Shown: positions 5,105 through 63,820 of the stretch, piece after piece | Layout of the letters: every line of letters starts with the position of its first letter | Numbering within the stretch: the stretch's first letter is position 1 | Assembly: GCA_028284905.1 (NCBI GenBank) | Contig: JANQQU010000085.1 | Span: 186,001-250,000 of the forward strand | Direction: 5' to 3' | Source of the DNA: Calditrichia bacterium | GTDB taxonomy: Bacteria; Calditrichota; Calditrichia; RBG-13-44-9; J075 | Length of the DNA: 64,000 bases | Position numbers and translations under genes: made by a program | Notes under the pieces: model-generated | Database searches by the model: none | What the model was told of the DNA's origin: nothing | Seen by the model: the letters and a program-made list of their open reading frames with translations, nothing else

Positions 5105-5178
5105 GGGGCGGTAGCTCAGTTGGTTAGAGCGCTACGTTGACATCGTAGAGGTCGTCAGTTCGACTCTGGCTCGCCCCA
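5105..5178 (+). tRNA. tRNA-Val (anticodon GAC)
   Basis: A complete cloverleaf can be folded by hand. The acceptor stem is GGGGCGG/TCGCCCC (one G-U pair), the D stem GCTC/GAGC with loop AGTTGGTTA, the anticodon stem CTACG/CGTAG with loop TTGACAT, the variable loop 5 nt, and the T stem GTCAG/CTGGC with loop TTCGACT. Anticodon GAC at loop positions 3-5 reads GUC and GUU valine codons. The discriminator base is A and CCA is not encoded. A hairpin follows 6 nt downstream. Confidence 0.97.
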
Positions 5179-11174: not shown

Positions 11175-11177
11175 AAT

Positions 11178-11358
11178 AATCCCTGCTGACTGTTGGTGTT
11201 ATATTTTGAAAGAACCAACAATATTAATATGGGAGTTTGACTCTAGGCGACTAATGCATGCCTTCTATATTGAAGGAGCGTGACCCGTCTAGGCAGGCAC
11301 CCACCGTGTCTTAAGGCCGGTTCTTTCGAAAATCGCCAGGTTGTGCAGGGATTTTTTT
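11178..11358 (+). ncRNA. ssrS: 6S RNA (SsrS), candidate
   Basis: A roughly 180-nt non-coding block that folds into one long rod. Terminal stem: AATCCCTGC (11178-11186) with GCAGGGATT (11345-11353). Second stem: GAAAGAACC (11208-11216) with GGTTCTTTC (11319-11327), perfect over 9 bp. Apical stem: CTAGGCG (11243-11249) with CGTCTAG (11286-11292), capped by CCTTC/GAAGG (11261-11276). Between the second and apical stems, about 26 unpaired nt on each side leave a large central bubble, the feature by which 6S RNA mimics an open promoter and holds housekeeping RNA polymerase. The 3' stem runs into a T tract that can serve as terminator. Size, shape and position just after zapA all agree. Sequence conservation with known 6S RNAs could not be tested. 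Confidence 0.75.
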
Positions 11359-49285: not shown

Positions 49286-51214
49286 ATGGTTAATACATTC
49301 AGAACCGGTGGTAAAAGTTTGTTGCTGATGATAGCGATACTGCTAATCTCATACACAGAAACTCTCACGGCGCAAATTGCCTGGACAGACACTTCCGTCT
49401 ATCCCTTGCCGGAAATTCTCGTCGAGGACGAGCCTATATTAGTGCCCACGCCGATTATTGTCCGGGAAGCGGAGATACGGGATTTTCAGGCATATAATGC
49501 CCATAATATATCGGAAGTCTTAAACCAGTCTCCGGGAATCAATGTGCAGTATGGCGCCTCTTCCAACGATGCCCGCGCCTGGGTGCGAGGCTTTCGCCAT
49601 CGCGATGTGTTGATTTTATTCGACGGTATTCCCCTCGCTTCTGCGTTTGAAGGCAGCATTGATCTGAATGAAATTTCCATCGAAAATATCTCCCGGGTTA
49701 AAACCATGAAGGGTGCACCATCGGTGATGTATGGGCCCAATGGCATGGGTGGTGTTATTGACATTATCCCGAAAAGCGGCAAAAATTTTGACGGTGCCCA
49801 TGCGCTGATAGAAGTCGGTGAGAACAGCAGCAATTTATTTCGGGGAAATTTAGGGGGAAGCCATAATAATCTAAATTATTTTGCTTCGGTGAACTTTGAA
49901 ACTTCCGATGGCTTCTCACTAGCAAATGGCTTCGAAAGCCAGTTGAATGAAGACGGCGAGCTGCGGGAAAACAGTGATTACCTACGGCGCAATTTATTCC
50001 TGCACTTAAATAGTGAATCGGCAAGTCTTGGCAGAACATCTTTTTTTGTAAATGCCACGAGTAATGAAAAAGGGTTGACGCCGCAGGCCGGCACCGACGA
50101 TGTCGATTTTGAGCGCCTGACCAAGTCTAACCGCCAGACGGTCGGTTTTTCCAACCAATTTTTGGCAATACCGCTGTCCCTGAAGATGTATTACAATGCT
50201 TCACAAACCCGTCTGACCGCGTTTACCGATGGCAGCTATAGCGAAGTGGACGAGGTTGAGGATGCTGAAGATTACTCACTGGGAGGCGCATTATATTCGA
50301 AAGTTTCGACATCGGAGAACAATCTTATTGTATTGAATGCCGCCTATCGCCGCGACGTTTTTGAGGCGGAAGAAGCGCTGGAAAATCTTGACCAGGTCAG
50401 CATCAACACCTATACACTTTCCGCGGAAGATGAGTTCTCGTTGAATAAACGTATCTCTCTGGCTGTCGGGGCAATGTTTAACGTCTTTGAACAACCGGAA
50501 GTGAATGAGAGTATCAATGCCCTCAATTTTCAGGCGGTCGCCGGTTATCAATTGCTGGAGAATGTTGCCCTGCATGCCTCGGCTGCCCAGCGGACTCGCT
50601 TCCCGAAATTGCGGGAGCTTTACCGGGAACGCTATGGAAATCCTGATTTGAAGGAACAAAGCACGGTGAATTATGAATTTGGATTTAAGCATAATCTCGC
50701 CGGGAAAGTGCAGACGGATGTAACCATTTTTCAAAGTGATCTGAAGGATCTGATTGAACGGCCGGATCGGCGCAGCCTTTATCAGAATATTGACGAAGCG
50801 ACTTTTAAAGGACTGGAACTTTCATCGGGCAGTTGGTTGACGGAGAAGCTTTTTGGCCGGGTTGGCTATCAGTACCTCGATGCGTCGGAAACGCTGGAGG
50901 ACGGCAGCAGTCAGCAGTTAAGAAGCCGCCCGAAGCATACCACTTATCTGGAAGCCCGCTATAAATTGCCTTTTAATATCATGACAGCGATTAATGGTAT
51001 TTATGTGAATGAGCTTTATGATTTGGATGATGATGACAATTTTGTAGAGCTCCCCAGTTATCTGGTATTACATTTGAAGGCATCGGTCACATTGCAGGAA
51101 AACATCTCCACATATATTGACATTTCAAATTTAACAGACAAGAACTACGGCCATCGCTTGGGATACCCCCGGGAAGGGCGTACATTTCGTGCTGGTCTGA
51201 GAGTTGATATGTAA
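49286..51214 (+). CDS. TonB-dependent outer-membrane receptor
   Basis: A 642-residue outer-membrane protein. The signal peptide is followed by a plug domain at about 45-165 (LPEILVEDEPI as a TonB-box-like stretch, EVLNQSPGINVQYG, RAWVRGFRHRDVLILFDGIPLASAF, VKTMKGAPSVMYGPNGMGGVIDII) and a 22-strand-type barrel to the C-terminus, which ends in an aromatic-rich strand FRAGLRVDM. Such receptors import metal chelates, B12, sugars or peptides with TonB energy. CAGGAG precedes the ATG. It is divergent from the S74 protein gene and starts the long plus-strand run, with only 63 nt to the decarboxylase. Ligand unknown. Confidence 0.93.
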   Translation: MVNTFRTGGKSLLLMIAILLISYTETLTAQIAWTDTSVYPLPEILVEDEPILVPTPIIVREAEIRDFQAYNAHNISEVLNQSPGINVQYGASSNDARAWVRGFRHRDVLILFDGIPLASAFEGSIDLNEISIENISRVKTMKGAPSVMYGPNGMGGVIDIIPKSGKNFDGAHALIEVGENSSNLFRGNLGGSHNNLNYFASVNFETSDGFSLANGFESQLNEDGELRENSDYLRRNLFLHLNSESASLGRTSFFVNATSNEKGLTPQAGTDDVDFERLTKSNRQTVGFSNQFLAIPLSLKMYYNASQTRLTAFTDGSYSEVDEVEDAEDYSLGGALYSKVSTSENNLIVLNAAYRRDVFEAEEALENLDQVSINTYTLSAEDEFSLNKRISLAVGAMFNVFEQPEVNESINALNFQAVAGYQLLENVALHASAAQRTRFPKLRELYRERYGNPDLKEQSTVNYEFGFKHNLAGKVQTDVTIFQSDLKDLIERPDRRSLYQNIDEATFKGLELSSGSWLTEKLFGRVGYQYLDASETLEDGSSQQLRSRPKHTTYLEARYKLPFNIMTAINGIYVNELYDLDDDDNFVELPSYLVLHLKASVTLQENISTYIDISNLTDKNYGHRLGYPREGRTFRAGLRVDM

Positions 51215-51277
51215 GGGAATTCCTGGGCATTTGATTGAACGATCAGATGCCCTGCCCCAGGGAAGGAATATTGGCGA

Positions 51278-52603
51278 ATGGATATCCGTCAATGGCGCTT
51301 AACTACCAATAAGCAGGGACACCTGATTTCCGAAGGTTGCGACCTGGTAATGCTGGCGAAGGAGTTTGGTTCTCCGCTGCACAGTGTCAGCGTTTCCCGG
51401 CTTCGTAAAAATTATCATCGCTTTCGGAAAGCTTTCCAAAATTTGCACCCGCAATCTTCCGTTTATTATTCCTATAAAACCAATTGTATTCCCGGCGTCA
51501 TCCGTATTCTTCATGAAGAAGGCTGTGGGGCAGAGGTCATTTCTCCCTACGAGTTTTGGCTAAGTGAGCAATTAGGCGTCGATGGATCCGCGGTTATCTA
51601 TAATGGCGTCAATAAATCTGTGGAAGATCTTACCCGCGCAGTGGAACGGGATGTTCGTCTGCTTAATGTTGAATCTCCTGCGGAAATTGAGCGCTTGATT
51701 ACCGTTGTCAATCGCCTCGCTAAACCGGTGAATGTCGGTATTCGGATCTATCCTGCCGCTGGATGGAAGGCACAGTTTGGTTTGGATCCGGCGGTTGATA
51801 ATTTATTCGCGGCAATTGCAGCATTAAAAGCTGTCGAAAATATTAATATTTGTGGCCTTCATGTACATATCGGATCCGGGTTGAAGCAGCCAGCGTATTA
51901 CCGGAAAACCTTGCGGCAAATCTGTGAATTGATGGCAGAAATCCGCCGCCAATTTAAAATAACCATAACCAATCTGGATATCGGCGGTGGCTATGGCGTG
52001 CCGACGGTAAAAACTTTGTCGATCAGCGAAGTCGCAGCCTACAAGCTATTTCAAAAATCTCCGAAACCGCCAGTAGCGGAAGATTGCGCATCAATTGAAA
52101 AATTTGCGGAAGCGATTGTTTCGACATTGCAGGAAGAATGTAAAAAGCATGATTTCCCTTTGCCGAATTTGATTCTTGAGCCGGGGCGTGCCTTGACCAG
52201 CGATGCTCAAATGTTGTTAGTAACTATTCAGGAAATCAAGGTGCGCCGGAAGGGACTCAAGTATGCGCTGGCGGATGGAGGGATGCAAAATATTGCCTTT
52301 CCGCTTTCGTATGAATATCACCACTGTTTTTTGGCAAATCGCCCACTGAGCGCAGCGACCGATAAATATAACATCATGGGAACGCTCTGTTCTCCGGAAG
52401 ATTTCCTCTACCGCGGCTGGCCGATGCCGGAGTTACAGCCGGGAGATGTGCTGGCAATTATGGATGCCGGTGCTTACTTCAATTCATTCGCGAATAATTT
52501 TGCTTATCCGCGCCCCGGAGTGGTTTTGCTGGAGAATGGTATAGCTAAACAGACTAGAAAGCCGGAAGAATATCAACAGATGATTGCTGCAGATATCTTC
52601 TGA
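51278..52603 (+). CDS. PLP-dependent decarboxylase, diaminopimelate/ornithine decarboxylase fold III
   Basis: A 441-residue enzyme with the fold III signatures: SVYYSYKTNCIPGVI (PLP Lys near residue 68), EVISPYEFWLSEQLG, ICGLHVHIGSG (near residue 190), LDIGGGYGVP (phosphate loop), ILEPGRALTSDA and, near the end, GTLCSPEDFL with the catalytic Cys. The C-terminal MDAGAYFNSFANNFAYPRP matches the substrate-side Tyr/Asn loop. It differs from ordinary LysA at several places, e.g. CSPEDFL where CE(S/T)GD is usual and a longer insert before EDCASIEKF. It resembles secondary-metabolism members (staphyloferrin SbnH, butirosin BtrK). Substrate unknown. Confidence 0.85.
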   Translation: MDIRQWRLTTNKQGHLISEGCDLVMLAKEFGSPLHSVSVSRLRKNYHRFRKAFQNLHPQSSVYYSYKTNCIPGVIRILHEEGCGAEVISPYEFWLSEQLGVDGSAVIYNGVNKSVEDLTRAVERDVRLLNVESPAEIERLITVVNRLAKPVNVGIRIYPAAGWKAQFGLDPAVDNLFAAIAALKAVENINICGLHVHIGSGLKQPAYYRKTLRQICELMAEIRRQFKITITNLDIGGGYGVPTVKTLSISEVAAYKLFQKSPKPPVAEDCASIEKFAEAIVSTLQEECKKHDFPLPNLILEPGRALTSDAQMLLVTIQEIKVRRKGLKYALADGGMQNIAFPLSYEYHHCFLANRPLSAATDKYNIMGTLCSPEDFLYRGWPMPELQPGDVLAIMDAGAYFNSFANNFAYPRPGVVLLENGIAKQTRKPEEYQQMIAADIF

Positions 52604-52635
52604 GCATCGACTTAACCAACAGGGAAGTAAAGGTA

Positions 52636-53427
52636 TTGGAAAACAACAACCTCGAATATTGGGATAACATCGCTGATGATTGGCAGCATTCACAGGAGCG
52701 CCGCTTGTGGCGGCAGCACAGTGATGCCATCCATACCCGATTATTTCTCCGCTGGTTGCCGGAGAAAAAGGTTGATGCCCTGTTAAAAACGGACCTCTTT
52801 GACGAATCGTTAACCGATGGCGTATACCCGCTGATGAAATCGCGGGCAAAGCGCGTTGTTGGGATGGATATTTCCCCGGCGATTCTGGCAGCGGTTCGCC
52901 GGCGACATCAGGATATCGAACTTGTTGAGGCGGACGTTCGCGATTTACCTTTCCCGGATAATACTTTCGACGTTATCATTTCCAATTCGACGCTGGATCA
53001 TTTTCACACGGCGGATGAAATTCTGCTGAGTCTGGCAGAATTGAAACGAGTATTAAAGACAGATGGGCTGCTGTTCGTCTCATTAGATAATATGGCGAAC
53101 CCGGCGATTGCCATTCGAAACTTTTTACCTTTTAAACTTCTGAATAAACTGGGTTTAGTGCCGTATTATGTTGGTGTTAGTTTCGGGCCTGCCCGATTAA
53201 AACGCGCATTGAAAGATCTCGGACTTGAGATTCAGGAAATAGATGCATTGTGGCACTTCCCAAGAGTGTTTGCAGTGTCCATCGCTAATTTGCTTGAGAA
53301 ATATGCCTCGAAAAGCTGGCAAAAAAAATACCTGGATTTTTTAATGTTTTTTGAAAAATTAGCCAATCTACCGACCCGTTTTTTGAGCGGTTATTTTGTT
53401 ATCGTGAAAGCGCGAAAGGTTGATTAA
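52636..53427 (+). CDS. Class I SAM-dependent methyltransferase (Methyltransf_11 type)
   Basis: A 263-residue protein from a TTG start. The SAM region is clear: LLKTDLFDES in place of the glycine loop near residue 48, VVGMDISPAILAAVRRR near 72, VEADVRDLPFPDNTFDVIISNSTLDHF near 97-120, and ELKRVLKTDGLLFVSLDN. The first loop lacks the usual GxGxG, which weakens confidence in activity. The C-terminal part carries a hydrophobic segment (YLDFLMFFEKLANLPTRFLSGYFVIV). It lies 32 nt after the decarboxylase and 150 nt before the first ATP-grasp gene, so it probably acts in the same pathway, methylating an O or N position. Confidence 0.83.
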   Translation: MENNNLEYWDNIADDWQHSQERRLWRQHSDAIHTRLFLRWLPEKKVDALLKTDLFDESLTDGVYPLMKSRAKRVVGMDISPAILAAVRRRHQDIELVEADVRDLPFPDNTFDVIISNSTLDHFHTADEILLSLAELKRVLKTDGLLFVSLDNMANPAIAIRNFLPFKLLNKLGLVPYYVGVSFGPARLKRALKDLGLEIQEIDALWHFPRVFAVSIANLLEKYASKSWQKKYLDFLMFFEKLANLPTRFLSGYFVIVKARKVD

Positions 53428-53601
53428 TTCAGAATTTGCTGCAAATGATGGTTCTGGTTTCACAGCAGTAACACCGTTAATAAACTTGTGACCTCCCGCA
53501 AGCCCTTTACCCGGAAATCTATTTCATTTCAAGATACCCCTCTAATCCGGGGCTTCAGCTGATCTAACCGAATTCTTCTCTACTTGCTAACAGGTGCTAA
53601 G

Positions 53602-54906
53602 ATGCGATTACTGGTGACAAATACCCGTGAGGCGCAGGCATATACAATTATTCGTTGTCTGCGACCTTATGCCGAAAAAGTAGTTACGACGATATATGGC
53701 GAGAACCGCCTGGCTGCATTTACTTCCCATGCCGCTCATTCCCGTTTAGTGGATAAATATTATCGGGTACCGATGCCGGAAGCGGATTGGCAATCCGGCC
53801 TGATCCAACGGGAAAATACCGAACAGGAAGCGACCTATCTTGCCGCAATGCTGGAGATTTGCGATAAAGAAAAGATCGACACCATTTTCCCTTCCCACGA
53901 TCCGCAGGTTTATATCCTCTCCAAGAATAAGGAGAAATTCACCGAGCGAGGGATAACGATCCCGGTGCCGGACTTTGACACTTTGCTGCTCTGTCTGGAT
54001 AAGCAGCGGACGATTGAGCTGGCAAGAGAAGCAAATTTTCCTCACCCAAAAACTTTTCAGCCGCAAACCCGCGAAGAAATTGAAGCGGTGGCGGAACAGA
54101 GCACGGCGCCCTGGGTGATTAAACCCCGCCTAACCGCTCGCTCGAAGGGAATGGAGATTGTCACCACCCGGGAAGAGCTGGTTAGCCAGACTTTACGCTT
54201 ACGGGAAATTTATAAAGACCCACTGGTGCAGGAATACATTCCCGGCGGACAAAAACAGAACTTCTATTTGATGGCCGGTCCGGACGGGAAGGTGCGCACG
54301 GCTTTTTGCCCGAAGATTATCCGCCATGCCCAGCGACTTTACCGCAATTCTTCCGCCGCCTGTTTATTCGATGACGATCATGACATTCTGCCCCAGGTAA
54401 AATCGTTTGTGGAATTACTTGGCTGGCGCGGTCCGCTGACATTACAAACAAAAGTGGACGCCCGGGACGGGAAACCGAAATTAATGGAGATCAATCCACG
54501 GGTCGGCTCCCATCTCTGGTATCGCACCGAGCTGGGCATCAACGAACCATTGATGGCGGTGAAAATTGCGAAGGGAGAAGAGCCGCCGGAATTTAAGAAC
54601 TACCCGGTAGGCACGCTGTTGTTGGAGCCAATCGAGGACAGCTACAACTTTATCCTCGCCTTTCTCGATATCTTCGCCTACAAATACCGGATCGGCTTTC
54701 TGCGCCGGAAACCGATGGATCCGCTAAATGCGCCGCCTTCTTTGCGAGGGCTGTTCAAAGATTACAAAGAAAACTATTTCGGAAAAGTTCAACGGAAGTA
54801 TAGCCCGCACTTTGCATATTTTTTTAGCGATGTTTTTTCAAATCTGCTTTGGAGCTACGCTTCGTTCCGTTATACGCTGAAGGGTCTAAAAAGAATAGGA
54901 CGTTAA
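53602..54906 (+). CDS. ATP-grasp ligase (CarB-like), first copy
   Basis: A 434-residue carboxylate-amine or carboxylate-thiol ligase. The N-terminal Rossmann part (RLLVTNTREAQAYTIIRCLRP) is followed by the ATP-grasp fold: DKQRTIELAREANFPHPKTF near residue 135, APWVIKPRLTARSKGMEIV near 170 (ATP Lys and glycine loop), LVQEYIPGGQKQNFYL near 210, and KLMEINPRVGSHLWYRTELGINEPL near 295 (Mg-binding E-x-N-P-R). It activates a carboxylate as acyl-phosphate and joins it to a nucleophile. I use the ATG at 53602; the frame begins 6 codons earlier. It is a clear paralogue of the gene at 56393. Confidence 0.9.
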   Translation: MRLLVTNTREAQAYTIIRCLRPYAEKVVTTIYGENRLAAFTSHAAHSRLVDKYYRVPMPEADWQSGLIQRENTEQEATYLAAMLEICDKEKIDTIFPSHDPQVYILSKNKEKFTERGITIPVPDFDTLLLCLDKQRTIELAREANFPHPKTFQPQTREEIEAVAEQSTAPWVIKPRLTARSKGMEIVTTREELVSQTLRLREIYKDPLVQEYIPGGQKQNFYLMAGPDGKVRTAFCPKIIRHAQRLYRNSSAACLFDDDHDILPQVKSFVELLGWRGPLTLQTKVDARDGKPKLMEINPRVGSHLWYRTELGINEPLMAVKIAKGEEPPEFKNYPVGTLLLEPIEDSYNFILAFLDIFAYKYRIGFLRRKPMDPLNAPPSLRGLFKDYKENYFGKVQRKYSPHFAYFFSDVFSNLLWSYASFRYTLKGLKRIGR

Positions 54907-54911
54907 AAGGC

Positions 54912-56396
54912 ATGTCCACTAATCGATCTATCACACTTTTCAAGCGGATGCTCTGGTGCATCATATTGCCGATTCAGCTGCTCTTACTGATGCCACTCCC
55001 CGCCGCGGATAATTGGCCCGGCTGGAGAGGGGATGGTAGTGGCGTTTCCCCGGATAGCAATACGGTGACAAAGTGGGATAGCACTACGAACATTCGCTGG
55101 CAGGTAAAAATTCCCGGCAAAGGACATTCTTCTCCGATCATCTGGGACGACTATATTTTCCTGACCGCCGCTGAAAAAGTTAAGAATGACAAGAATTACA
55201 AAAAATATCTCCACGCGGCAATTTTACTAATCACAATATTTTTGGCGATTACGGCATATCTGAACTTTCGCCGAAATGCAGCTATCAACGGTTCCGATTC
55301 GATATTTCAACGGCTAAAAAAAGAATGGCTTAAACTTGCGCTGATAGTGATACTACTGGCATCTCAAGTGCTGCTATATAAATTTCAGGTTTTTGATACC
55401 AGCGTAAGATTAAAAGTGCTCGCGCTTAATCGCCTTTCCGGCGAAACGCTTTGGGAACGCTTATGTATTGAGGATAAAACGATTGCCATTCACCCGGATA
55501 ATTCTCTGGCAACGCCGACACCGGTAACGGACGGACAGCATGTATATGCCAATTTTGGTTCTTTTGGTAATTACTGCTTTACCATGGCCGGAGAAACGGT
55601 ATGGCAAAGCAGAGAACAATTAGCGCCTTTACGTTGGGGATTTTCCAGCTCGCCTGTTCTCTCTAAGCGTCTATACATTACCGTATATGATACGGACACA
55701 ACATCTTATATTTTTGCTTTTGATAAATTTACCGGGGAGCAGCGCTGGCAACATAGTTACCTCAACAGTAATATGCAGCATGGCAGTTCTTATAGCAGCC
55801 CATTCGTATGGATTAATGATAGCGATCCGCAAATAATACATCACAGTTCTTATGAGATACGATCCTATTCCCCCGAAACAGGCGAGTTGATTTGGGAACA
55901 GGTATTCAAAGAAAGAAGATCGTATACATCTCCGATTATCGTCGGCAATGCATTAATCGTCAATCGGGGCGGCAATCAACCTCCGCATATAATGGAACGA
56001 TTTCTTCTCGAAAAAAATGGGGATTCCTGGAACATTTCCAGTGAGTGGCAGCAAAAGAAAATGATCGCCAGCATAAGTTCTCCGCTTGTTCATCAAAACA
56101 GAATTTATTCGGTAACAACGAATGGGATTGCAACCGCCCGTGCTTTGGCAGATGGGAAGTTGATCTGGAAGAAACGCCTCTCAAGGGGGAAGTATTATGC
56201 TTCGATAACAGCGGCAGGACATTGGCTCTATTTTGCCAATCTGGATGGAGCGGTTACCGTGATGAAAGCTGGCGATCAGGCAGAAATTGTTGCGGTAAAT
56301 TACCTGGACGAAGCGCTCTTTGCCTCTCCGGCAATCTCCCGGGGAGAAATATTTATTCGCGGTGATGAACATCTTTACTGCATTGGGGAAAAATGA
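54912..56396 (+). CDS. PQQ-like beta-propeller protein with a transmembrane hairpin inserted after the first blade
   Basis: A 494-residue protein from the ATG at 54912. A signal/anchor (ILPIQLLLLMPLPA) is followed by the start of a PQQ-type propeller: WPGWRGDGSGVSPDSN, WQVKIPGKGHSSPIIWDDYIFLTAA (residues 35-80). Two hydrophobic helices then interrupt the blade (AAILLITIFLAITAYLNF near 93-110 and LALIVILLASQVLLYKF near 134-150). The propeller resumes with LNRLSGETLWER, TPTPVTDGQHVYANFGSFG, FTGEQRWQHSYL, SPETGELIWEQVF and ADGKLIWKKRL. It has no haem or quinoprotein catalytic residues that I can see. It is coupled to the next ATP-grasp gene by a 4-nt overlap. Confidence 0.82.
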   Translation: MSTNRSITLFKRMLWCIILPIQLLLLMPLPAADNWPGWRGDGSGVSPDSNTVTKWDSTTNIRWQVKIPGKGHSSPIIWDDYIFLTAAEKVKNDKNYKKYLHAAILLITIFLAITAYLNFRRNAAINGSDSIFQRLKKEWLKLALIVILLASQVLLYKFQVFDTSVRLKVLALNRLSGETLWERLCIEDKTIAIHPDNSLATPTPVTDGQHVYANFGSFGNYCFTMAGETVWQSREQLAPLRWGFSSSPVLSKRLYITVYDTDTTSYIFAFDKFTGEQRWQHSYLNSNMQHGSSYSSPFVWINDSDPQIIHHSSYEIRSYSPETGELIWEQVFKERRSYTSPIIVGNALIVNRGGNQPPHIMERFLLEKNGDSWNISSEWQQKKMIASISSPLVHQNRIYSVTTNGIATARALADGKLIWKKRLSRGKYYASITAAGHWLYFANLDGAVTVMKAGDQAEIVAVNYLDEALFASPAISRGEIFIRGDEHLYCIGEK

Positions 56397-57697
56397 AAGT
56401 GCTTATCACCAATACTCAGTGTGCCCAGGCATATTCTATTATCCGCTCTCTGCGTCCCTTTGCAGAAAAGATCGTGGTTACGATGAGTGGAAAATACCGC
56501 TTTCAGGCGCGAACCGCCCATGCGGCAAATTCCCGCCTGGTGGATAAACGTTATTATGTGCCCCGCTCGGAAAAAGATTGGCAGGCCGGGATTATTCAAC
56601 GGGAGAACACCGAGCGGGAAGAGCGCTACTTGCAACGAATAGAAGAGATTTGCCGCCGGGAAAAAATCGACACCATTTTTCCCTCTTATGACCCGGAAGT
56701 ATATATCTTCTCCAAAAATAAAGAACGATTTGCCAAGCTGGGCGTCCATTTGGTTGTACAGGATTTTGATCTCCTCATGATTCCCCTGGACAAGTATAAA
56801 TCCTATCTCGCTGCGAAAAAGGCCGGATATCCAGTACCGGTAACCGTATTACCCCAGACGGACGCGGATCTGGAAGAAATTCTTGATACCCAGGAACCAC
56901 CCTGGGTGATTAAGCCCCGTTTAAGTGCCAACAGTAAAGGCACGAACATTGTCAGTGAAAAAAAGAACCTGATCAAGGTTTTTCGGGAAACCGAGAAAGA
57001 ATATCAGCAACCGATGGTGCAGGAATTAGTGCCCGGTAGAGAACGCCAAAATTTTTATGTGATTTGTGATGGTCAGTCAAACATCTGCAGCTTTGTTGCG
57101 CCGGAAGTGGTGCGTATTGGTCGACGCTTATTTCGTAATTCTTCTATGGCAGCGTTAATAACATCGACATCACGGTATCAATCGCAAATTCAGAAAATTT
57201 GTAAAGATCTCAAATGGTGGGGTGGATTGACGGTGCAGGCAAAAATAGACGCTCGCGATGGGCTACCGAAACTAATGGAGATCAATCCCCGCTTCGGGCG
57301 CCATCTCTGGTATCGCACCGAATCGGGCATCAATGAGCCATTGATGATTTTGAAGCTCTCCCGGGGAGAAGCAGTGCCGGAATTTACGAATTATCAAAAT
57401 GGCGCCATCACCCTGGAGCCGTTAGATGATTTACTCAATTTTGTGTTTGAGTTTGGGGATCTGGCACTTTTTAATATTCGCAAAACAATCTTCCGGAAAA
57501 AACCGGCCGATATTTACAATTTACCGCCATCCGTTTCGGAAATGTTTAAAGCTTATGCCCGGGATTATTTCAATCGCCGGAAAAAAATAATTACCCCTTA
57601 CACCCGTTATTTATTAAGTGATCCGCTGGTTTGCATTCTCTGGTATTATGCGATGCTCGGCGACTCTTTGCGGACGCTTAATCATCGGGCGAAATAA
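56393..57697 (+). CDS. ATP-grasp ligase (CarB-like), second copy
   Basis: A 434-residue paralogue of the ligase at 53602, alignable almost end to end: KVLITNTQCAQAYSIIRSLRP, IDTIFPSYDPEVYIFSKNKERF, PPWVIKPRLSANSKGTNIV, MVQELVPGRERQNFYV and KLMEINPRFGRHLWYRTESGINEPL. The ATP and Mg motifs are intact in both copies, so both are probably active and differ in substrate. The ATG overlaps the propeller gene stop by 4 nt. Two divergent ligases in one operon suggest two successive condensations, or one hetero-oligomer. Confidence 0.9.
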   Translation: MKVLITNTQCAQAYSIIRSLRPFAEKIVVTMSGKYRFQARTAHAANSRLVDKRYYVPRSEKDWQAGIIQRENTEREERYLQRIEEICRREKIDTIFPSYDPEVYIFSKNKERFAKLGVHLVVQDFDLLMIPLDKYKSYLAAKKAGYPVPVTVLPQTDADLEEILDTQEPPWVIKPRLSANSKGTNIVSEKKNLIKVFRETEKEYQQPMVQELVPGRERQNFYVICDGQSNICSFVAPEVVRIGRRLFRNSSMAALITSTSRYQSQIQKICKDLKWWGGLTVQAKIDARDGLPKLMEINPRFGRHLWYRTESGINEPLMILKLSRGEAVPEFTNYQNGAITLEPLDDLLNFVFEFGDLALFNIRKTIFRKKPADIYNLPPSVSEMFKAYARDYFNRRKKIITPYTRYLLSDPLVCILWYYAMLGDSLRTLNHRAK

Positions 57698-57732
57698 AAA
57701 TTAGTGTTGTGTTAATGAAATAATGCTGCAAG

Positions 57733-57846
57733 CTGTCATCGCGAGGAGTGCAACGACGTGGCGATCTCTCTGTGGATGCAACTTATGGGATTGCTTCTCC
57801 CGGCAGCCGGGATCGCTCCGAAGGAGTCCCTTTGGGGCAATGACAG
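57733..57846. repeat. Dispersed palindromic element of the 'TGTCATnGCGAG' type
   Basis: A 114-bp block begins CTGTCATCGCGAGGAGTGCA and ends GGGGCAATGACAG, so the ends are inverted copies. Inside are GGCGATCTC and GGGATTGCTTC motifs and CCCGGCTGCCGGGA-like pairing. This wording (TGTCATTGCGAG ... gcaatctc ... GCAATGACA) is known from small repeats found in many bacterial genomes. It fills most of the 229-bp gap between the second ATP-grasp gene and the bicupin gene, and may separate two operons. Confidence 0.65.
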
Positions 57847-57926
57847 ATCAAATAGAATTAGATATTTAATACTACCCAATTCAGTATCTTGGCCAATAAC
57901 AATCGTGGAGCTTTCAAGCAGCTGAT

Positions 57927-59183: not shown

Positions 59184-60272
59184 ATGAAAAAAATGCAAAC
59201 GCGAAGAGACTTTCTTCGCTCCCTGGCGCTGCTTTCCGGCAGTGCGATATTCCCCGCTCATTTATTTGGCAAAGATAATTCCAGTTGTATTGGGGGAAAT
59301 GATATAATGGAATGGGTGGTGCCAAACGCAGCGGGTGGCGGTTACGATCGCTATAGCCGTTTAATCGCCCCGTTTCTGGCAACGGCGCTGAATCGGGATA
59401 TTGTTATCAAAAACTTTCCCGGTGCCGGTGGGATCATCGGCGCTCGCCGCATACAGAATGCCAGTCCGGCAGGAAATACGTTTGGCATCATCAACGCGCC
59501 GGGCTTGCTGGCTTCTCATCTTTCCGGCGAAGCGAAGGTGCCCAATCCATTAACAGACTTTGCTCTTTTGGCGCAAATTTCCAGTAGTCGCCAAGTGTGG
59601 ATAACCGGCAGCCAATCCGGCATCGACAGCATGGAACAACTGATTCAAATCGGGCAAAAGCGACCGTTAATCTGTGGCACTCGCGGCGTCAGCAGTTTGG
59701 GATTTATCAATGTCGCCTTGACGGCACATTTGCTTGGCATAAAGGTCGAAATTGTGCCCGGATATATGGGCAGCAATGCCGGTGTGCTGGCGGCCATGCG
59801 CGGAGAGGTGGATTTTGTCGCCTATAATTTTTATTCTATTCGGCGCCATCTCGACAGCGGCGATATGCGCCCATTGCTCCAGGTGGCATCTGCGCCAATC
59901 AGTGAAGCAGCAATTCTGAATGAAATACCACTATTGGGTGGGCCAACAGGCATTGCTGTTACACAGGCAGAAGAAAGCGGGAAGAATGCCGCTCAAGCGC
60001 GGGATGATGCAACAGCTATCGAAAATTTACTCGGGGCCGGACGCATTCTGGTTGCACCCTCAAACTTGCCGGATGATCTAAGACTTTGTCTGTCAAAAAC
60101 TATTTTGGATGTGCTGAATAATCCGGATTTAAAAGCCGAGGCCGAAAAAAATAGCTTACAGTTAAATGTACTTGATGCTAATGCGCTGCAGAAAAAACTA
60201 AACAACATCGCAGAACGGGCCGGGCGCTTTATTCCCGTCATACAAGCTGCAATTAAGAAGGTGCGGCAATAG
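59184..60272 (+). CDS. Tripartite tricarboxylate transporter substrate-binding protein (TctC/Bug family)
   Basis: A 362-residue exported solute-binding protein. The N-terminal RRDFLRSLALLSGSAIF (twin-arginine-like, RRDFL) directs export. The mature part has the Bug fold: MEWVVPNAAGGGYDRYSRLIAPFLATAL near residue 42, VIKNFPGAGGIIGARRIQNA near 74, and GSNAGVLAAMRGEVDFVAY near 197. It captures carboxylates in the periplasm for the TctA/TctB carrier. The start is supported by the twin-arginine motif near the N-terminus. The gap to the next gene is 0 nt, so it is an operon. Confidence 0.93.
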   Translation: MKKMQTRRDFLRSLALLSGSAIFPAHLFGKDNSSCIGGNDIMEWVVPNAAGGGYDRYSRLIAPFLATALNRDIVIKNFPGAGGIIGARRIQNASPAGNTFGIINAPGLLASHLSGEAKVPNPLTDFALLAQISSSRQVWITGSQSGIDSMEQLIQIGQKRPLICGTRGVSSLGFINVALTAHLLGIKVEIVPGYMGSNAGVLAAMRGEVDFVAYNFYSIRRHLDSGDMRPLLQVASAPISEAAILNEIPLLGGPTGIAVTQAEESGKNAAQARDDATAIENLLGAGRILVAPSNLPDDLRLCLSKTILDVLNNPDLKAEAEKNSLQLNVLDANALQKKLNNIAERAGRFIPVIQAAIKKVRQ

Positions 60273-61808
60273 ATGCTTGATCCCATATTTCAGGCGGCCT
60301 GGGAAGGGTTTCTGCTGGTTTTTTCCTGGCCAAACATCCTCTACCCAATTGCCGGGACGCTGCTGGCAATGTATTTTGCGCTGCTCCCGGGATTGAATGG
60401 CACCACCCTGATGGCCCTGGCGATTCCCCTGACCTTTACCTGGGAACCTCTGCAGGTGATTTTGATATTCGGGGCATTTGTCGGCGGGGCGACATTTACC
60501 GGTTCTGTGACGGCGATTCTCTTCAATATTCCCGGGCTGGCTTCCAATGCCGCCACCCTGCTCGATGGACATCCTCTCGCGCAAAAGGGGGAAGCGAAGA
60601 CCGCCATTGCCTGCTCGGCAACGGCATCTGCGCTTGGATCCACGGTGGGAGTCGTTGTCCTGATTCTTCTGCTGCCATTGCTGCGGGAAGTAATCCTCTT
60701 TTTCGGCCCACCGGAATTTCTCATGCTCACCATCTGGGGATTGACCACGATTGCGATTTTATCCCGGGGATCAATGCTAAAAGGGTTGATCGCCGCCGGC
60801 ATTGGCCTGATGCTATCGATGATTGGGATGGATCTGCGCACTGCTGAATTACGCTTTACTTTCGGCTGGGATTATCTGCAGGATGGCCTCAGTCTGGTTG
60901 CGGTCTTTATCGGCATCTTTGCCCTGACGGAAATTCTCGGCATGGTCCTTTCCGGACGGGAAACGATTTCCGGGAAAACCGATAGCAGTGCTCTCACCGG
61001 CAATGTCTGGCAGGGAATCGCCTCTGTTTTTCAGAACTTTGGTCTTTTCATCCGCAGCGCTGTTCTCGGAACGGTCATCGGTATTATTCCCGGTATCGGG
61101 GCAACGGTCTCAAGTTTTATTGCTTACGGGCATGCAGCGCAAAGTGCTGGAAAAAATAACGGTAATTTTGGGAAGGGAGATATTCGCGGTGTCATCGCCC
61201 CGGAAGCGGCGAATGATGCTAAAGATGGAGGTGCCCTGGTACCGACCCTCGCTTTCGGTATCCCGGGCGGCAGCGGCACCACTATGTTGTTGATAGTATT
61301 AACCGTTCATGGACTCAGCCCGGGGAAGGAATTGCTTACCAGCCAACTGAGCCTGGTCTTTGTCCTGATCTGGTCTCTCTTTCTTTCCAACTGGCTGACA
61401 TCCCTGCTTGGCATCAGCATGATAAATCCCTTGTCCCGATTGACTACGATCCGCATGCAGGTAATTATTCCACCGATCATTTTGCTGGCCAGTATTGGCG
61501 CGTTTATGCATCGGGGAAAAATTGAAGATGTTTGTATTGCCTTTCTATTTGCGGGCATTGGTTACCTGATGAAGAAAAATCGCTGGCCGCGCATACCGAT
61601 GGTGATAGCGCTGGTGCTCGGACCATTATTCGAAAATAATTATCACATCACCGCGCGCCTGCAGGATTTGGGCAGAATCGATTTCTTCGCTCGCCCGGTC
61701 GTTATCGTTTTGATTCTTCTCGCTGGTTTTAGCCTGCTCTTACCGGCTTTTCAGCATTTTCGTTCCACCAAAAAGGTGAGCAAGGAGGATAGTTTTGAAG
61801 TCAATTAA
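60273..61808 (+). CDS. Tripartite tricarboxylate transporter large membrane subunit (TctA)
   Basis: A 511-residue polytopic protein with about 11 to 12 helices and the TctA motifs: ALLPGLNGTTLMALAIPLTF near residue 35, FTGSVTAILFNIPGLASNAATLLDGHPLAQKGEA near 75, GIIPGIGATVSSFIAYGHA near 272, and APEAANDAKDGGALVPTLAFGIPGGSGTTMLL near 310. This is the carrier of the system, driven by an ion gradient. It begins directly after tctC and overlaps tctB by 14 nt. The carboxylate carried cannot be read from sequence. Confidence 0.95.
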   Translation: MLDPIFQAAWEGFLLVFSWPNILYPIAGTLLAMYFALLPGLNGTTLMALAIPLTFTWEPLQVILIFGAFVGGATFTGSVTAILFNIPGLASNAATLLDGHPLAQKGEAKTAIACSATASALGSTVGVVVLILLLPLLREVILFFGPPEFLMLTIWGLTTIAILSRGSMLKGLIAAGIGLMLSMIGMDLRTAELRFTFGWDYLQDGLSLVAVFIGIFALTEILGMVLSGRETISGKTDSSALTGNVWQGIASVFQNFGLFIRSAVLGTVIGIIPGIGATVSSFIAYGHAAQSAGKNNGNFGKGDIRGVIAPEAANDAKDGGALVPTLAFGIPGGSGTTMLLIVLTVHGLSPGKELLTSQLSLVFVLIWSLFLSNWLTSLLGISMINPLSRLTTIRMQVIIPPIILLASIGAFMHRGKIEDVCIAFLFAGIGYLMKKNRWPRIPMVIALVLGPLFENNYHITARLQDLGRIDFFARPVVIVLILLAGFSLLLPAFQHFRSTKKVSKEDSFEVN

Positions 61809-62319
61809 ATTCCCGTCTATCCTTACGCTCGTTTTGATGTTGATGCTGTTTATTCTGCTTTATGAAACGCTGCAGCTTGGGCGGTTGGCCGCGGTGGTAC
61901 CGCTGAGCATCCTCTATGTCGTTATTCCACTAATGATGCTTCAAGTAGGGATAGAATTTTTCCCTTCCCTGGAATCTTTCAGCGAAAAAATATTCCGGCT
62001 AGAATTGGGAAACAAATATTCCGATCAAAAGAAAGTTGCCGAAAAAAGCAGTAAAGTTGAGAAGAAACCAGAGCAAGCGACAGTTAGATATGGCGCAGTC
62101 GCTGGTATTCTTAGCGTTCCTTTCGGGATCATATTCTTTGGTTTTTTACCGGCAATCGTTGTCTTTTATACATTTTATCTGCGTAAAGTGAATGGTAGCA
62201 CCTGGGTAAGTTCCTTGCTAATTACCAGCGTATTTGCCGGCTTAGTCTACTTTTTCTTTTGGCGGGTGCTGCAGGTGCCGCTTTACCCGGGAATCCTAAT
62301 ACCATGGATGGGGTTTTAG
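61795..62319 (+). CDS. Tripartite tricarboxylate transporter small membrane subunit (TctB-like)
   Basis: A 174-residue protein with four to five transmembrane helices (about 8-25, 31-50, 101-125, 145-165) and a charged cytoplasmic loop (SDQKKVAEKSSKVEKKPEQ). This is the TctB layout. The TTG start has AAGGAGG 6 nt upstream (61782-61788) and lies inside the end of tctA, a 14-nt overlap. TctB proteins vary greatly in sequence, so the call rests on topology and position. It ends 4 nt before the flippase gene. Confidence 0.85.
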   Translation: MKSIKFPSILTLVLMLMLFILLYETLQLGRLAAVVPLSILYVVIPLMMLQVGIEFFPSLESFSEKIFRLELGNKYSDQKKVAEKSSKVEKKPEQATVRYGAVAGILSVPFGIIFFGFLPAIVVFYTFYLRKVNGSTWVSSLLITSVFAGLVYFFFWRVLQVPLYPGILIPWMGF

Positions 62320-62323
62320 TATC

Positions 62324-63820
62324 ATGAAGCTTTTTCAGCAGGGGAAAGATTTGCGCGGAAAAGTGGTTAATGCTGCTTTCTGGTCCTTTCTCCTTCACAT
62401 TGCCGGCCGCGCCTTAAATGTGCTGCGGACAATTGTTGTCGCCCGTATTCTGGCGCCGGATGATATCGGTTTATTTGCCCTGGCGACGCTTGTCCTACTT
62501 TCGGTAGAATTATTCACCCGTACCGGTTTCCAGTCTGCCTTGATCCACCGGGAAGGCGATATTACCAATTATCTCAATGTTGCCTGGGCAACACATATCA
62601 TGCGGGGATTTCTCCGGGCAGGGATGATGGCAATCGCAGCGCCACTGGCCGCGATCTTCTTTAATGAAGCGGCCCTGCAAACATTGATTTTAATGGCTGC
62701 TTTATCCGTCGTGTTGAGTGGCTTAAATAATACCGGGGTTATCTATTTTCGGAAAGAGCTGCACTTCCAAAAACACTTTTTCTACATGCTAAGCCGCCCG
62801 ACGGGGGATCTGATTGTCTCCATTATTGCTGCGACGATCCTGCAGAATGCCTGGGGATTGGTGTATGGATTGGTCGCCGGTTTTGCTTGCCAGCTCATCG
62901 TCTCTTTTCTGGCCCATCCGTTTCGGCCTCGATTTCATTTTACCATGGCAGCCTTTAAGAAATTATTCCAATACGGCAAATGGATGAATTTAACCGGGAT
63001 GATGATTTTTCTCGGGGATCAACTCGCCGGGCTGGTTGTTGGGAAAATGATTAATGCTTATGCCCTCGGTCTCTATCACCTCGCCTTCTGGCTGGCGCAA
63101 ACCGCCCTGGTGGAAGTGGCGGAGACGATCGACCGGGTCGCTTTTCCGGCCTATGCCAAGTTGCAGGATGATCTGGAGAAATTTCGGGCCGCTTTCCGGC
63201 AAATTACCGGTTTCATGGTCACCTTGATAATTCCGGTGGTCTTATTGATCCTGTTAACGGCAGATAGCTTTGTGCCGCTAATCCTGGGAACGCAGTGGCT
63301 GGAAATGATTCCGGTGCTGAGAATACTCATCGCTGCCGGATTCCTGCTCACAATAGGGTTAGCCGCTCGTCCGGTATTCCTGGGTATCGGGATGCCGGAA
63401 AATGTATTTCGCATGCAGGCGATTCGCGGACTAACGCTGGTGCTTTGTCTGTATCCCCTGGTTGCCAATTCAGGCATTACTGGTGCCGGTTGGGCTATTA
63501 TGATTAGCAACACGGCGTTACTGGGATTTGTCATTCTAAAACTGCGGGCAGTACTGATGGTCAAATGGGAGGATGCGCGGCAAATTTTTCTCCCGGGCTT
63601 TTTCGCCGGCAGTTTAATGGTTCTCGTTTATTTTTTGACTGAATTCTTCCTGAGCGAATTTGCCGGCATCGATCTGCCTGCCAGTAATATTTTCTGGTTT
63701 GCAGTGCAGATACTCCCGGGAGTATCTGTGTTTATTCTCTCCTTAATTCTCACCCAAAAGTTTTTTCCGGATAATCAACCACTCGTTGCAATCCAGCAGT
63801 TTTTTAGTCGTAAAAAGTAA
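62324..63820 (+). CDS. Polysaccharide flippase (Wzx/oligosaccharide flippase family, MOP superfamily)
   Basis: A 498-residue polytopic protein with about 12 to 14 helices. The family N-terminus is clear: VVNAAFWSFLLHIAGRALNVLRTIVVARILAPDDIGLFALATLVLLSVELFTRTGFQSALIHR, the WzxC/TuaB-type start. Such proteins move undecaprenyl-linked glycans or repeat units across the inner membrane. It follows the transporter operon by 4 nt, so it is probably transcribed with it, linking the neighbouring genes to an exported glycan or conjugate. No ABC exporter is near. Confidence 0.93.
   Translation: MKLFQQGKDLRGKVVNAAFWSFLLHIAGRALNVLRTIVVARILAPDDIGLFALATLVLLSVELFTRTGFQSALIHREGDITNYLNVAWATHIMRGFLRAGMMAIAAPLAAIFFNEAALQTLILMAALSVVLSGLNNTGVIYFRKELHFQKHFFYMLSRPTGDLIVSIIAATILQNAWGLVYGLVAGFACQLIVSFLAHPFRPRFHFTMAAFKKLFQYGKWMNLTGMMIFLGDQLAGLVVGKMINAYALGLYHLAFWLAQTALVEVAETIDRVAFPAYAKLQDDLEKFRAAFRQITGFMVTLIIPVVLLILLTADSFVPLILGTQWLEMIPVLRILIAAGFLLTIGLAARPVFLGIGMPENVFRMQAIRGLTLVLCLYPLVANSGITGAGWAIMISNTALLGFVILKLRAVLMVKWEDARQIFLPGFFAGSLMVLVYFLTEFFLSEFAGIDLPASNIFWFAVQILPGVSVFILSLILTQKFFPDNQPLVAIQQFFSRKK

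Follow-up and report, generated by a model that had tools for sequence, protein, structure and literature searches.

An intact gene cassette of a Calditrichia bacterium coding for a PLP decarboxylase, a methyltransferase, two ATP-grasp ligases and a membrane propeller

Gene content and organization

The window, that is the whole stretch of 64,000 nucleotides that was analysed (G000:C13:186001-250000), belongs to a genome of 8.55 Mb. It carries a cassette of five intact ORFs, all on the + strand:

51278..52603, + strand, decarboxylase, a PLP enzyme of the alanine-racemase fold (Pfam, NCBIfam, alignment, tree)
52636..53427, + strand, class I SAM methyltransferase-like protein, TTG start (Pfam)
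53602..54906, + strand, ATP-grasp ligase 1, PRK12767-like with a PylC-like N domain (Pfam, NCBIfam, alignment)
54912..56396, + strand, PQQ-like (BamB-type) propeller, secreted or membrane protein (Pfam; helices read from the sequence)
56393..57697, + strand, ATP-grasp ligase 2 (Pfam, alignment to ligase 1)

The positions and intactness of these genes in the first-pass annotation were borne out, as all five ORFs were found and each has a Pfam match (Orn_Arg_deC_N, 3e-39; Methyltransf_11, 2e-19; PylC-like_N and ATP-grasp domains; PQQ_2, 1e-20). Homology of this length, spanning several domains, does not arise by chance. The preferred start of ATP-grasp ligase 1 is the ATG at 53602, while its longest ORF opens at a TTG at 53584; for the propeller, the ATG at 54912 is preferred. 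The intergenic gaps are, in gene order, 32, 174, 5 and -4 bp, so that the tight coupling previously described for the last two genes is correct, the propeller and ATP-grasp ligase 2 genes overlapping by 4 bp. The cassette also lacks a carrier protein or precursor peptide, as first noticed: its two larger gaps hold short chance ORFs and nothing that would fit a carrier protein or a precursor peptide. A RiPP or NRPS reading was rejected on this ground. Promoter and terminator scans were equal to those of shuffled sequences or only slightly better.

The locus may extend past the segment 51278-57697 to which it was originally assigned. The following features flank the five genes:

49286..51214, + strand, TonB-dependent receptor, BtuB/siderophore-like, at the head of the co-directional run (Pfam, NCBIfam)
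51225..51252, + strand, hairpin in the gap between receptor and decarboxylase, with a 12-bp stem, no T-run, z = -2.1
57730..57850, no strand assigned, intergenic dispersed repeat between ATP-grasp ligase 2 and bicupin, 44 matches in the genome
57927..59081, + strand, membrane-anchored bicupin, possible part of the cassette (Pfam)
59184..62319, + strand, TctC-TctA-TctB tripartite carboxylate transporter, possible part (TctC and TctB by Pfam, TctA by sequence and position)
62324..63820, + strand, Wzx/MOP-type flippase, 4 bp after TctB, possible part of the cassette (Pfam, NCBIfam)

The receptor gene, overlooked in the first-pass annotation together with the bicupin, TctCAB and flippase genes and with the envelope and glycan context of the closest relatives, ends 63 bp upstream of the decarboxylase gene, and this gap is the basis on which it could be counted as part of the cassette. 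The hairpin found there is not among the terminators listed by the scan. Neither a cobalamin riboswitch upstream of the receptor nor a Fur box near or upstream of it was detected. On the other side, the dispersed repeat intervenes and therefore bicupin, TctCAB and flippase may form a separate unit. Nickel-insertion (hyp) genes come after the flippase. Elsewhere, the window has a match to 6S RNA above the gathering score (11177-11355) and a tRNA (5105-5178).

Relationship of the decarboxylase to LysA

The decarboxylase has both Pfam domains and the hallmarks of an alanine-racemase-fold PLP decarboxylase. Aligned with Methanocaldococcus jannaschii LysA, it keeps the PLP lysine, the GGG and EPGR motifs, the catalytic Cys and DAGAY. 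The DAP-binding Arg of RPxxY is replaced by F341 (FPLSY), the CESxD loop of LysA reads CSPED and the HPxISTG loop is absent from the window protein. The DAP-specific roles of these positions are in part general background. How these positions set specificity has been described, together with the common ancestry of DAP decarboxylase and the non-polyamine decarboxylases FigC, SbnH, AcsE, MccE and BtrK (PMC7857480).

The genome codes for a second protein, on contig C40, that scores 384 bits with the LysA model TIGR01048, above the cut-off of 297.9, and has CESSD, the Arg of RPxLY and the loop in the variant HHxITTG. Next to this genuine LysA is a gene whose sequence resembles that of a D-alanyl-D-alanine carboxypeptidase. 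The window decarboxylase reaches 265.7 bits. In a tree of 13 sequences, whose references include partial ones copied from printed alignments, the LysA proteins form one clade (99/97) and the window decarboxylase lies outside it. Judged by its sub-cut-off score, the lost DAP motifs, its position in the tree and the presence of LysA on C40, the window enzyme is not the LysA of the genome. The possibility, set out beforehand, that it is the sole LysA thus fails. LysA is the nearest curated family by score, being both the best NCBIfam model and the best PDB match, and the decarboxylase could on this account be the genome's LysA with incidental neighbours; against the shortfall in bits, the loss of three LysA features and the separate clade, this is extremely improbable and the reading was rejected.

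A stretch resembling the dispersed repeat is translated at the amino terminus of the C40 LysA ORF, which suggests that the annotated start of that ORF is wrong.

In ODC, ADC and DAPDC, an acidic residue beside the catalytic Cys contacts the side-chain amine of the substrate (PMC7857480). The window decarboxylase has no such residue, which makes a conjugated or otherwise unusual substrate likely.

Relatives of the decarboxylase and their ATP-grasp partners

The best match by far in plasmid records is a decarboxylase of Nitratidesulfovibrio vulgaris pDVUL01, with 37% identity over its full length. The two proteins are sisters in the 13-sequence tree (99/98), share an insert after the GGG motif and both miss the DAP motifs. 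This N. vulgaris gene overlaps with that of an ATP-grasp protein and is followed by one of FemAB type, the pair (DVUL_RS15540/RS15535) being found within an exosortase/exopolysaccharide locus with glycosyltransferase, acyltransferase and FemAB-type genes. It differs from the window cassette in its single ATP-grasp protein (~25% identical to the window ligases), in the exosortase, glycosyltransferases and FemAB around it and in the absence of propeller and TonB receptor. The plasmid record (L042:14902-16545) names the protein 'diaminopimelate decarboxylase'; this annotation is probably wrong, since CESxD is replaced by CTRSD and the score of 187 bits does not reach the LysA cut-off.

Contig C39 of the window's own genome (L017:6287-11328) codes in a row for an ATP-grasp protein, a decarboxylase and a methyltransferase, between NeuB and a PIG-L deacetylase and inside a nonulosonic-acid cluster (NeuB, CMP-transferase-like, PseG-like). 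The C39 decarboxylase groups with FigC in the tree, and FigC N-citrylornithine decarboxylase is its closest relative among solved structures. Three other genomes of the phylum (L038:4952-9495, L039, L040) likewise have an ATP-grasp gene adjoining a FigC-like decarboxylase gene, followed by a urea-transporter gene wherever the next gene is readable. In L038 the product of this next gene is a urea transporter fused with an M23 peptidase domain, and a similar gene follows the L040 pair.

An ATP-grasp gene thus lies within one gene of all six non-LysA decarboxylases examined (window, N. vulgaris, C39 and the three same-phylum genomes, a small sample in which the latter three are closely related) and of neither of two LysA genes, in line with the pairing that had been proposed for decarboxylases of this kind.

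The ATP-grasp ligases

The two ligases are 48% identical over 429 amino acids and both ORFs are intact, which agrees with the initial description of two intact, diverged ligases around a propeller. In the alignment both keep the ATP-grasp metal ligands Q/E/N and the ATP lysines (Q282, E296, N298 and K174 in ligase 1), whose roles are known from carbamoyl-phosphate synthase. As these metal and nucleotide residues are kept, amide formation through an acyl phosphate would be expected.

Fold, metal and ATP residues relate the ligases to carbamoyl-phosphate-synthase-like ATP-grasp proteins of the PRK12767 type (2pn1, PylC). They differ from these in scoring below every NCBIfam cut-off, in a carboxyl-terminal extension of ~100 amino acids and in the motifs HLWYRTE and GINEPLM, which the pattern scan found in no homologue elsewhere. 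An AlphaFold model of ATP-grasp ligase 2 computed from two sequences had a pLDDT of 39 and was discarded.

The PylC-like N-terminal domain matches of both ligases could mean that they modify a protein or cofactor by amino-acid addition, in the manner of PylC, MfnD or RimK, next to an unrelated decarboxylase gene. This is quite unlikely, given the ATP-grasp gene found beside each non-LysA decarboxylase examined.

Two diverged ligases also suggest two successive amide bonds. The decarboxylase could act first, on a free amino acid, to give an amine, and the ligases would form both amide bonds of a soluble natural product, a pseudodipeptide, unrelated to the envelope. In E-64-type pathways decarboxylases supply polyamine building blocks. 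An NRPS-free logic of two amides is known from E-64 and dapdiamide (PMC12568646). The missing acidic neighbour of the catalytic Cys and the envelope loci in which the nearest decarboxylase relatives reside speak against this order of events, which we consider unlikely.

Of the five other ATP-grasp relatives in the genome, four are located in glycan clusters, and Wzx-type flippases accompany three of these four. On contig C11 (L049:7163-10068), another ATP-grasp gene is divergent to a PQQ-like propeller gene, a neighbourhood like that of ligase and propeller in the window.

Methyltransferase and propeller

Motif I of the methyltransferase is altered, with KTDLFDE in place of the Gly-rich loop. 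Two relatives of this protein, identified by tblastn and aligned, have a near-normal motif I. The propeller has two hydrophobic helices inserted near its amino terminus, as read from the sequence, and its propeller part has ~30% paralogues within the genome.

Distribution of the cassette

None of the 39 other genomes examined from this phylum contains exactly this set of genes. In these genomes the ATP-grasp pair has zero matches at E<=1e-30, the receptor has zero relatives at E<=1e-60, and decarboxylase (~30% paralogues aside), methyltransferase and bicupin have no close match. Conservation of the whole cassette can therefore not be shown, and as a singleton in the phylum the set draws no support from it. 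A pattern scan of 84,980 species gave no relative of the ATP-grasp pair, and scans of viral contigs gave neither this pair nor the decarboxylase pair; since such scans require exact short motifs and have limited sensitivity, they are weak evidence of rarity from which absence of the family does not follow. Searches of plasmid records with methyltransferase, bicupin and receptor returned distant matches only, and literature searches did not find the gene set described.

Putative function of the cassette

An NRPS-free pathway of amide-bond formation, here combined with decarboxylation, had been put forward as the best reading of the locus. It continues to be so, because the decarboxylase is a non-LysA enzyme of a type that pairs with ATP-grasp genes. 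We propose that the cassette codes for such a pathway in the cytoplasm and that its product is destined for an envelope glycan or lipid, a proposal to which we give somewhat less than even chances. A carboxylate would be converted into its acyl phosphate by one or both ATP-grasp ligases and coupled to an amino acid. The decarboxylase would then strip the alpha-carboxyl from the joined (or free) amino acid to yield an amine, which the methyltransferase may cap. The product would be moved outward, most likely as a decoration or a component of a glycan or lipid of the envelope. It is probably a small molecule or a decoration that carries an amine and is meant for the cell envelope; the form we favour is an envelope glycan or lipid decorated with an amine-bearing amide. 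The sequences establish the enzyme families, the intact active-site motifs of ligases and decarboxylase, the non-LysA character of the latter and its repeated pairing with ATP-grasp genes, whereas the order of steps, the substrates, methyl capping and the envelope destination, as well as any role of propeller, receptor, TctCAB and flippase, are inferred.

The envelope destination is drawn from context, namely the exopolysaccharide locus of N. vulgaris, the nonulosonic acids of C39 and the glycan clusters in which most of the other ATP-grasp relatives of the genome lie. Several features argue against it. The cassette has no glycosyltransferase and the flippase gene is 4.6 kb away, past the dispersed repeat; the N. 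vulgaris ATP-grasp protein is a distant relative of the window ligases; motif I of the methyltransferase is unusual; and exosortase EpsH/Xrt (PF09721) is absent from the genome. The adjoining TonB receptor suggests uptake rather than surface display.

Pairs of an ATP-grasp protein and an alanine-racemase-fold decarboxylase occur repeatedly in this phylum and also in a sulfate-reducing bacterium. Should they be a marker of surface glycans decorated with amine-bearing amides, they would offer a way to trace in genomes a modification that annotation conceals under the name 'diaminopimelate decarboxylase', the N. vulgaris record being an example.

Relation to known biosynthetic systems

The cassette is real, intact and unusual: to the known theme of an ATP-grasp protein with an alanine-racemase-fold decarboxylase it adds duplicated ligases and a membrane propeller. 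Its novelty is the arrangement, the enzyme types being already known. To our knowledge, only a few characterised pairs of this kind exist, in antibiotic and siderophore pathways. Among the proteins of butirosin biosynthesis, BtrJ is an ATP-grasp ligase. Its partner BtrK is, as in the window, a decarboxylase of the alanine-racemase fold (PMC7857480). The butirosin enzymes differ in acting on a carrier-protein thioester, while the window cassette has neither a carrier ORF nor room for one. FigC/FslC of rhizoferrin and SbnH of staphyloferrin B share with the window decarboxylase the fold, the wider clade and the logic of joining and then decarboxylating (PMC7857480). Their amide is made by NIS synthetases, of which the window's genome has none, the basic residue three positions after the catalytic Cys (H357/K347) corresponds to E374 in the window decarboxylase, and the latter falls outside the FigC clade in the 13-sequence tree. 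The parallels that the first-pass annotation had drawn to butirosin and staphyloferrin therefore stand for the logic and fall for membership, the cassette having no carrier, the genome no NIS synthetase and residue 374 being acidic.

These siderophore systems raise the alternative that the locus makes a small metallophore. A carboxylate, for instance citrate, would enter through TctCAB and be joined to amino acids by the ligases. The decarboxylase would trim this conjugate, as happens in the rhizoferrin and staphyloferrin B pathways, the product would leave through the flippase, and the TonB receptor would retrieve the metal complex. Receptor, TctCAB and flippase genes are all co-directional with the cassette, the hyp genes for nickel come next in the run, and FigC, SbnH and AcsE of the same wider decarboxylase clade act on citryl-amino acids (PMC7857480). 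In a vibrioferrin-type cluster, pvsA (ATP-grasp) and pvsE (PLP decarboxylase) occur with a TonB receptor gene (PMC12838400); this cluster also has IucA/IucC-family (NIS) synthetases. The last are missing from the window's genome, so that the ATP-grasp proteins would have to do the NIS job; a NIS siderophore as such was rejected. The acidic E374 at the position of the citrate-contacting H357/K347, the repeat element between cassette and TctCAB, the absence from the run of a siderophore ABC importer or reductase and the lack of a Fur-box match or riboswitch near the receptor all weigh against a metallophore made by ATP-grasp enzymes, which is an unlikely product.

A broader and still less likely proposal is a make-export-retrieve system free of both NRPS and NIS enzymes. 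Its product, a metallophore or envelope conjugate, would come from the duplicated ATP-grasp pair, as an undescribed subfamily, and a conjugate-specialised decarboxylase, served by a TonB receptor of its own, a periplasmic propeller, the carboxylate importer and the flippase.
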